Shown piece by piece: positions 21,820 through 35,290 of a stretch of DNA of 64,000 bases (positions are counted from its first letter, which is position 1; every line of letters starts with the position of its first letter). Position numbers and translations under genes: made by a program. The notes below the pieces were generated by a model. It saw only the letters and a program-made list of their open reading frames with translations. It was not told where the DNA came from and ran no database searches. The DNA is from Candidatus Saccharimonadota bacterium (GTDB lineage Bacteria > Patescibacteriota > Saccharimonadia > Saccharimonadales > Saccharimonadaceae), in the NCBI GenBank assembly GCA_017524405.1, contig JAFWSJ010000015.1:1-64000 (forward strand). The letters run 5' to 3'.

Positions 21820-21824
21820 CCAAC

Positions 21825-21856
21825 AAAAATGAGGCCCATCGGGTCTCCTTTTTTGT
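21825..21856. terminator. Terminator between HD gene and tRNA-Ser module
   Basis: GAGGCCC/GGGTCTC stem with ATC loop, A-rich on one side and T-rich on the other; usable from both strands. Confidence 0.75.
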
Positions 21857-21866
21857 TCTGGCGGAG

Positions 21867-21942
21867 AGAACAGGATATAAACAATGCGCCGTTGCCGCAA
21901 GCGGCCGGGCATTGGACGAACCTTGGGCTCTCATCCTGTTCT
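21867..21942 (-). ncRNA. Structured module A, 3' of tRNA-Ser(GGA)
   Basis: A 76-nt segment read on the minus strand after the tRNA and its hairpin. A 10-bp outer stem (21867-21876 with 21933-21942) encloses a core nearly identical to module B at 35086-35161. The core runs GAGCCCAAGGTTCGTCC, then a CAATGC/GCATTG stem with an inner hairpin capped by CTTG. The outer stem has exactly the sequence of the neighbouring tRNA's T-stem/acceptor 3' strand. Stems covary between A and B. No protein-coding pattern is convincing. Identity unknown; could be an RNA or a DNA integration site. Confidence 0.6.
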
Positions 21943-21944
21943 AG

Positions 21945-21983
21945 CAGAACAAAAATACAACCCTGCGGGTTGTCTTCTTGTTC
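21945..21983. terminator. Terminator 3' of tRNA-Ser(GGA)
   Basis: ACAACCC/GGGTTGT stem with TGC loop, flanked by an outer GAAC/GTTC pairing and by T-runs on both strands; it lies directly after the tRNA CCA on the minus strand. Confidence 0.8.
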
Positions 21984-22073
21984 TGGCGGAGAGAACAGGA
22001 TTCGAACCTGCGAGAGCCTTGCGACCCTACACGCTTTCCAAGCGTGCTCCTTAAACCACTCGGACATCTCTCC
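21984..22073 (-). tRNA. tRNA-Ser(GGA)
   Basis: 90 nt with encoded CCA. The acceptor GGAGAGA/TCTCTCC, a long variable arm typical of Ser, T-loop TTCGAAT and anticodon loop CTTGGAAAG give anticodon GGA (reads UCC/UCU). Confidence 0.96.
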
Positions 22074-35041: not shown

Positions 35042-35085
35042 ATTACCACCTCCTTAAGGTACAAAGATACGCAGATTATACCAAA

Positions 35086-35161
35086 GCGAGAGGATATAAA
35101 CAATGCGCCGTCGTCGCTAACGCGACCGGGCATTGGCGAACCTGGGCTCGACCCCTCTCGC
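35086..35161 (-). ncRNA. Structured module B, 3' of tRNA-Ser(CGA)
   Basis: The second 76-nt copy of module A. The core GAGCCCAGGTTCGCC, the CAATGC/GCATTG stem and the GTTTATATCC end are conserved. The inner hairpin differs in sequence but still pairs (GTCGC/GCGAC, loop GTTA). The outer stem is now GCGAGAGG/CCTCTCGC, again identical to the 3' T-stem region of its own neighbouring tRNA. So three stems have changed in a compensatory way between copies. Confidence 0.6.
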
Positions 35162-35164
35162 GCA

Positions 35165-35202
35165 GAATAAAAATACAACCCAAAGGGTTGTCTTTTTTAT
35201 TC
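35165..35202. terminator. Terminator 3' of tRNA-Ser(CGA)
   Basis: ACAACCC/GGGTTGT stem as at tRNA-Ser(GGA), with loop AAA and outer GAAT/ATTC pairing; T-runs on both strands. Confidence 0.8.
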
Positions 35203-35290
35203 TGGCGGAAGCGAGAGGATTCGAACCTCCGAGACATTGCTGCCCACACGATTTCGAGTCGTGCGCCTTCAACCACTCGGCCACGCTTCC
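35203..35290 (-). tRNA. tRNA-Ser(CGA)
   Basis: 88 nt with encoded CCA. Acceptor GGAAGCG/CGCTTCC, long variable arm, T-loop TTCGAAT; anticodon loop CTCGAAA gives CGA (reads UCG). Confidence 0.96.

Follow-up and report, generated by a model that had tools for sequence, protein, structure and literature searches.

Two serine tRNA genes of a Saccharibacteria genome are followed by the same short arrangement of repeats and hairpins, and the question raised by this locus is whether the arrangement is a passive duplication, a selected structure or a piece of DNA that moves. The window, by which we mean the whole stretch of 64,000 nt analysed (G000:C13:1-64000), belongs to a genome of ~0.9 Mb in 18 contigs and contains four tRNAs, all on the minus strand (ARAGORN). 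Units of ~125 bp were found directly behind tRNA-Ser(GGA) and tRNA-Ser(CGA) and, by a covariance model, at none of the other window tRNAs; the model recovered exactly two copies (E values 1e-19 and 4e-18), so within the window tRNA-Ser(GCT) and tRNA-Arg(GCG) are without the unit, as an earlier note on this DNA had said. The exact 125-bp period reported there for both genes is also present, the tRNA 3'-end motif recurring 125 bp downstream, at 21984 and 21859 for the GGA gene (start of the CCA complement) and at 35210 and 35085 for the CGA gene (agcgagagga). The parts of the two units are as follows.

35203..35290, minus strand: tRNA-Ser(CGA) (ARAGORN, Rfam RF00005)
35165..35202, minus strand: bidirectional terminator of the unit, GAATAAAAA...TTTTTATTC (terminator-like hairpin on both strands; sequence)
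35154..35161, minus strand: 5' arm of P1, GCGAGAGG, an inverted copy of the tRNA 3' strand (fold, match to its own tRNA, covariation)
35137..35150, minus strand: hairpin P2, CGAGC/GTTCG, inverted T-loop against the direct T-stem/T-loop half GGTTCG (fold, pair counts)
35101..35135, minus strand: bulged hairpin P3, CAATGCCCGG-variable tip-CGACGGCGCATTG (pattern, model, covariation, tips, diverged stems)
35096..35100, minus strand: linker TTTAT between P3 and the displaced tRNA end (sequence; conserved in alignment A1)
35084..35095, minus strand: displaced tRNA 3' fragment, with the 3' arm of P1, CCTCTCGC, at 35086-35093 (sequence, arm match, retention counts)
21984..22073, minus strand: tRNA-Ser(GGA), first copy of the arrangement (ARAGORN)
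21859..21983, minus strand: whole 125-bp unit of the GGA gene (sequence, covariance model, terminator scan)
21947-21983, minus strand: terminator of the GGA unit
21933-21941, minus strand: 5' arm of P1 of the GGA unit
21918-21930, minus strand: P2 of the GGA unit
21882-21914, minus strand: P3 of the GGA unit
21877-21881, minus strand: linker of the GGA unit
21859-21876, minus strand: displaced tRNA 3' end of the GGA unit
21821..21858, minus strand: second terminator (hairpin and T-run) beyond the displaced tRNA end of the GGA unit (sequence)

In the sense of the tRNA, the order is the tRNA with its CCA, the terminator, an inverted copy of the T-arm, the GGTTCG half, P3, TTTAT and the displaced tRNA end. 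The direct copy of the T-arm is interrupted in the T-loop by the bulged hairpin and is preceded by the inverted copy, which in the CGA unit consists of GCGAGAGG plus GTCGAGCC. P3 reads CAATGC-CCG-variable tip-GA-CGG-C-GCATTG, with one-sided bulges, and a two-part pattern for this inner hairpin matched the window twice (21882-21914 and 35101-35135) and none of 100 shuffled sequences. Position 59 has the base of the local tRNA, mostly A at Gln and Ser, G at Lys and C at Glu. We read the 3' end of tRNA-Ser(CGA), from position 59 to CCA, as the part supplied by the inserted unit, inferring from the empty and filled sites compared below which copy is which. The displaced end retains all 18 nt in the GGA copy and 12 of 18 in the CGA copy (35084-35095). 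The hairpin and T-run at 21821..21858 is read as the original tRNA terminator, shifted downstream by the insertion; the terminator scan scored it on the plus strand only, so that its action in the tRNA sense is deduced from the sequence. The differences between both units listed in the earlier note could all be read: the outer stem switches from GAACAGGAT/ATCCTGTTC to GCGAGAGG/CCTCTCGC, the flanking terminator changes from GAAC/GTTC to GAAT/ATTC, and the inner hairpin is altered in both arms, a change that we located at its tip.

A third copy in the same genome is found at the beginning of contig C11, after a sequence that appears to be the end of a tRNA-Gln(TTG), and has a longer linker. Here (L003/L037) and at L157 and L049 the longer linker replaces TTTAT and contains a second hairpin, CATTTGCTTGCAAAT or CATTCGGGCTCTCCCGAAT, both arms of which differ between copies. 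In addition, at 35060-35101 of the window (minus strand) a TTGTTT at the edge of P3 stands 17 bp ahead of a TATAAT that belongs to the next gene, which may thus have acquired a new promoter half through the insertion; the promoter scan made no call.

At tRNA-Ser(CGA), genome G008 has an empty site, GCCA followed directly by ATCAGATGATATG, where G033 has the same flank plus 122 bp; their flanks agree at 93.7% over 1326 bp upstream and 92.1% over 214 bp downstream. Another pair with similar flanks is G035 and G036, the former with two units and the latter with a single one. Units also stand in tandem, two or three together, at Gln(TTG), Ser(GGA), Ser(CGA) and Lys(CTT), and the period differs between loci (3x105 bp in L039, 2x118 bp in L040 and L012, 3x136 bp in L259 and 2x143 bp in L149). 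The distribution is patchy, with the unit at seven of the 29 tRNA-Ser(CGA) loci examined; at the unit-free locus L021 (G032) the start of the downstream gene is shared with the window, at 86% over 37 bp and 71% over 169 bp. The earlier note spoke of a second copy of a module, which is right as to the repeated arrangement and too modest otherwise, because the unit is, by the pair of empty and filled sites, an inserted mobile piece. Across genomes, it is read as gene-less mobile DNA of about 105-145 bp inserted behind tRNA genes. The terminator is part of the insert and arrives with it, and is not part of the folded site.

The same note had argued from covariation in three stems for a selected structure, and had made this depend on an alignment of many copies showing covariation above background. 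Such an alignment, with 57 copies and three helices, gave three measures that beat all 500 shuffles: 87.7% of the cells were paired against 80.0% after shuffling, 146 cells were changed on both sides against 54, and the covariation score was 0.237 against 0.120, all of these counts being inflated by the kinship of the copies. Sliding the partner by 1-3 columns lowered the pairing to 34-53%. Two further counts over the 57 copies were within the range of the shuffles, namely the pairs with a double change (12, with 127 of 500 shuffles as high) and the further pair types (37, with 155 of 500 as high). P3 was paired in 98% of its cells and P2, the weakest helix, in 76.5%; the covariation of P1 is partly built in, because its 3' arm is a copy of the tRNA. 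Covariation therefore exceeds the shuffles as claimed, with the correction that the terminator stem lies outside the folded site.

The arms follow the tRNA next to them. In 41 tRNA-adjacent copies the 5' arm fits its own tRNA at 7.15 of nine positions, other tRNAs at 5.71 and shuffled ones at 5.26, and a fit of at least 8 of 9 is found in 44% against 1.7%. The fit of P1 is poor (5-7 of 9) in the Lys and several Gln(CTG) copies. At L139, where the upstream tRNA differs from the displaced end, the 5' arm fits the adjacent displaced end (GAGGGAC/GTCCCTC) and not the tRNA, so that what is retained is the pairing within the module. In the displaced tRNA end the pairing part (positions 59-67) is kept at 337 of 342 positions and positions 69-76 at 245 of 304, counted over 38 of the 41 rows, three having been dropped. 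The inverted arm is not a perfect counterpart of the T-arm, matching it at a mean of 11.65 of 16 (40 copies, no shuffled control).

The hairpin tips vary and still close. Over 84 copies there are 45 distinct tip sequences, whose closing stem averages 4.62 (0.66 in shuffled tips), and 38 of the 45 have a closing stem of at least 4 bp (2.6% when shuffled), one of the 45 resembling a chance match. As the 84 copies had been chosen for having at least 4 of their 5 basal positions paired, basal-stem counts alone are no evidence here; the tip counts are free of this selection. The core of P3, CCCG...(G/A)ACGGCG with its one-sided bulges, is kept in 81 of the 84, and diverged copies replace both sides of the P3 base (CAATGC/GCATTG, ATCCGC/GCGGAT, CAAAGC/GCTTTG, CAAAAC/GTTTTG, TAATGC/GCATTA) around a constant CCCG...ACGGCG. 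Judging by these sequence comparisons (covariation, fit of the arm to its own tRNA and closure of the tips), the pairing of the unit is under selection and is not the result of passive duplication.

The distribution of the unit was followed with the covariance model R1, built from the 57 copies, in searches with a stricter filter that loses weak matches: within this Saccharibacteria genus it gave 89 matches, spread over 33 of the 45 genomes (12 having none), and beyond it matches in 21 of 199 genomes and four of 61 genera in a sample of the family, and in 16 of 294 genomes in a sample of the class, all of them within the same family. Within the genus the targets are Ser(GGA), Ser(CGA), Gln(TTG), Gln(CTG), Glu(CTC), Lys(CTT), Arg(TCG) and Arg(CCG); further ones are Glu(TTC) in G044 and, for diverged copies in sister genera, Leu and Glu. 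The impression of a module of tRNA-Ser does not survive this comparison, as Gln, Lys, Glu and Arg are also used, plus Leu in the sister genera. The core dialects TTCGARCC and GAGAGCC are each found at Ser(CGA), Gln(TTG) and further tRNAs, and being common to different tRNAs they indicate similar bodies with arms refitted to each tRNA. Where records with the module are named, among the matches listed, they are MAGs of Candidatus Saccharibacteria, several of them from rumen and gut. In viral sequences the two-part pattern had one match, in an unrelated sequence with the module flanks absent, and a looser pattern in the viral and plasmid search gave at least 120 stretches, of which 80 were scored with the model and none matched; a check of the stems in all 120 kept one, which is not a module. 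BLASTN of the unit against the phages and plasmids searched gave no match. In genome contigs the two-part pattern hit 106 stretches, and the non-Saccharibacteria ones among the matches listed are without module flanks and were discarded as chance.

A recombinase gene travelling with the unit was looked for around the 89 copies. By comparison of the listed places, one copy (G027:C3) has a non-Xer tyrosine recombinase within 2 kb, with its element in the tRNA upstream of the unit, and none has a full PF07508 protein nearby; in the genus, PF07508 is found in 16 of 45 genomes and PF00589 in 39, and neither yields a protein linked to the unit. Most genomes of the genus have one Xer-like PF00589 protein. 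The sole PF00589 protein found in G000 scores 224 against the XerA-type cut-off of 220 and 133.3 against the integron-integrase cut-off of 265, and its best PDB matches are Xer proteins. The tyrosine recombinase at ~0.9 kb from the unit in L053 is separated from it by an intact tRNA-Arg and a displaced half of a tRNA, and was set aside as an insertion of its own. The tyrosine-recombinase elements of G029 and G021 were also rejected as a source of the unit, since they end near a tRNA-Ala fragment without the module. Their contigs (L198 and L199) are similar and carry a recombinase of ~305 aa beside a partial tRNA-Ala, in what seems to be a small, separate integrative element; L199 has in addition one TnpA-like ORF, recognised by sequence alone.

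The large serine recombinases of the genus (L164-L192, in 16 of 45 genomes) have a tRNA in 20 of 29 loci, and in 16 of these 20 an ORF on the opposite strand stops within the tRNA; the anchors are the 3' ends of Leu, Ala, Asn, Gln, Phe, Glu, Gly and Arg tRNAs. In the statement of the 2014 Islander paper on this point, only tyrosine-type integrases were then known to target tRNA genes (PMC4383910). These serine-recombinase elements seem to use the same hotspots, presumably including the tRNA copies made by the units. Between the units of L079 lie genes for Fic and macro-domain proteins, along with a zinc ribbon left over from a large serine recombinase; other neighbours are a DUF1771 protein (L044), a Schlafen-type helicase (L264) and a relative of adenylosuccinate synthetase (L045), and an ABC transporter is among the accessory genes at L045/L264/L079/L044/L135. 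The gene stretches between units at L041, L044, L045, L079, L135 and L157 are partly like serine-recombinase elements. The accessory genes among the units are possibly cargo or a defence hotspot. Downstream of tRNA-Ser(CGA) in L024 (G016) and L026 (G026) we also observed an unrelated small hairpin of the same plan, CGGAAGC-hairpin-GCTTCCGCCA, with outer arms that are copies of the acceptor 3' strand, which suggests a wider class of tRNA-matched folded units.

How could such a unit enter a tRNA gene? The T-arm is itself an inverted repeat, and the integron integrase is an enzyme that pairs a folded attC with a double-stranded attI. The reading that we prefer, though we hold it with not quite even confidence, is that of a gene-less, tRNA-targeted mobile unit in which the recombination site would be a folded single DNA strand similar to attC. 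The unit would insert in the T-loop/T-stem part of the tRNA gene and shift the old 3' end downstream; since it would bring its own version of position 59 to CCA along with a terminator, the tRNA would remain usable. The inverted T-arm would form P2 with the direct half of the T-stem and P1 with the 3' strand of the tRNA; because one strand pairs with both halves of the split T-arm, it could fold into something near to a double-stranded T-arm, capped by a loop and with P3 protruding at the position of the T-loop. A tyrosine-type recombinase would then join this folded site to the double-stranded T-arm of a tRNA gene, the enzyme being the host Xer (gene at L197:1405-2352) or an integrase provided in trans; a host Xer acting on the folded site would be the simplest candidate, which is a guess by analogy with phage CTX. 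In this preferred reading we infer the working form (single-stranded DNA, not RNA), the strand, the exact crossover and the candidate enzyme. The sections of the Islander paper on integration sites place the crossover zone of tRNA-targeting integrases in the T-arm, either in the T loop or at the junction of the T and acceptor stems (PMC4383910). A more ambitious version, which we consider less likely than not, is that recombination through folded single strands exists here apart from classical integrons, with the tRNA genes as the double-stranded partner sites; small folded units would restore a T-arm duplex, insert behind the tRNAs of six amino acids, stack, and seed hotspots of accessory genes in these ultrasmall bacteria.

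A transcribed small RNA, or a regulator associated with the tRNA 3' end, with a three-way junction that binds or mimics the T-arm, is an alternative that we consider unlikely. The 82-nt stretch folds as RNA at -40.5 kcal/mol (z -4.2), better than 200 of 200 shuffles, and the wobbles of P2 and P3 together (51 GT, 0 AC) are consistent with top-strand RNA. P2 accounts for 46 of these GT and has no AC; P1 conflicts, with AC exceeding GT (48 against 27). Against a transcript, a bidirectional terminator stands between the tRNA and the module, the scan gave no promoter-like site next to the module, no gene was seen to recur downstream, and Rfam 15 reported over the window only tRNA at gathering scores, with nothing at E<=1 over 35060-35200; moreover, the unit resembles mobile DNA in that a copy of the tRNA end comes with the insertion and that units repeat in tandem. 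As DNA, both strands fold at -20.7 kcal/mol, the top one with z -3.2 (better than 200 of 200 shuffles) and the bottom one with z -3.6 (one of 200 shuffles reached it), and as they fold equally well a choice of strand is unsupported. We give similarly low credence to a conventional double-stranded attP remnant, a MITE-like derivative of a T-loop-class tyrosine-integrase element whose inverted repeats would be binding sites and need no folding. That a T-arm is an inverted repeat by nature speaks for it. So does the combination of a tDNA with a displaced 3' fragment identical from the T-loop to CCA, the signature of tRNA islands in the Islander paper's own description (PMC4383910). The 45 distinct tips, however, vary freely in sequence and length and are nearly all self-complementary, which is hard to explain by double-stranded DNA binding, the conserved one-sided bulges of P3 are equally unexpected in such a binding site, and the genus genomes, phages and plasmids searched yielded no autonomous element that combines this site with an integrase.

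Descent from the large serine-recombinase elements, the unit being a spare landing site (decoy or by-product) or derived from an element end, looks very improbable to us. These elements do sit at tRNA 3' ends in the proportion given above and have left an integrase remnant between two units at tRNA-Lys (L079), but nhmmer with a 58-copy profile gave no match in L164-L196, the far end of the elements, where read, matches only the last ~8 nt of the tRNA while the unit matches up to 18, and the terminator side of the unit is not conserved, unlike what is expected of a serine attP half-site. Lowest of all we rank inert footprints, decaying relics in which pairing would be a trace of origin. Loss is visible, with 18 of 38 displaced tRNA ends incomplete and the 12 genus genomes without a module; nevertheless those incomplete ends keep the nine paired positions in 157 of 162 cells against 85 of 144 for the last eight, and the near-complete pairing of P3 in the 57 copies tells the same way.

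The attC-like folded site was compared with what is known. To our knowledge, integron attC and CTXphi are the known cases in which the recombination site is formed solely by the folding of single-stranded DNA. In the literature covered, outside which lie most subscription papers and all preprints, we found no description of a unit of this kind. If the preferred reading is true, it would be a third case, anchored at tRNA genes and located in the Candidate Phyla Radiation, and the principle would be broader; it would also explain how a genome of such small size takes up DNA without breaking its tRNAs. As the paired arms record the tRNA to which each unit is adapted, target switching would be directly traceable, and a single covariance model would be a marker for insertion hotspots that ordinary island finders drop as too short and integrase-free.

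The R boxes of attC have a conserved AAC/GTT core at the crossover; no such common end box appears in alignment A1, where the arms of the unit follow the tRNA. As described in the parts of PMC2727003 that deal with the attC fold, attC sites have paired outer arms, one-sided unpaired bases and a free terminal structure. The unit resembles them, within that description (PMC2727003), in its outer arms, paired at the crossover side and inverted so that they must match to fold, in an inner stem with conserved one-sided unpaired bases (the imperfect, bulged stem of the 81 copies mentioned) and a terminal structure free in sequence and length yet paired, and in the stacking of tandem units at a fixed anchor. 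It differs in that its arms copy the host tRNA instead of being fixed R-box heptanucleotides, P3 is strongly conserved in sequence, there is an extra hairpin (P2), and the units (105-143 bp in the arrays read) are mostly without a cassette gene; no integron integrase was found in the window genome, its PF00589 protein being below the cut-off. With tRNA islands (Islander class, T-loop/T-stem sublocation) it shares the restored tRNA, a displaced 3' fragment of up to 18 nt and tandem accretion, and all 38 usable tRNA-adjacent copies have an intact tDNA plus a 3' fragment in the same orientation (18 nt or shortened). An island has an integrase gene inside and a length of at least 2 kb by the rules quoted from the Islander paper (PMC4383910), whereas the 125-bp unit has no space for an integrase gene and has a structured non-coding body with an inverted T-arm copy. 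Missing defining features of both attC and tRNA islands, the unit is assigned to neither.

MITEs, REP/BIME and the ends of IS200/IS605 are short non-coding mobile palindromes, some recognised as single-stranded hairpins, and the unit is likewise short, non-coding, mobile and palindromic; in contrast to them, its direct repeat is the tRNA end, it is anchored at tRNAs, and no tetranucleotide target rule or link to a Y1 transposase was seen. The attP(+) hairpin of CTXphi is used by XerC/XerD and exists only when the single-stranded DNA folds. It is borne by a phage and mimics dif, whereas the unit mimics the T-arm of a tRNA; by analogy, both would have in common a recombination site formed only by folded single-stranded DNA.
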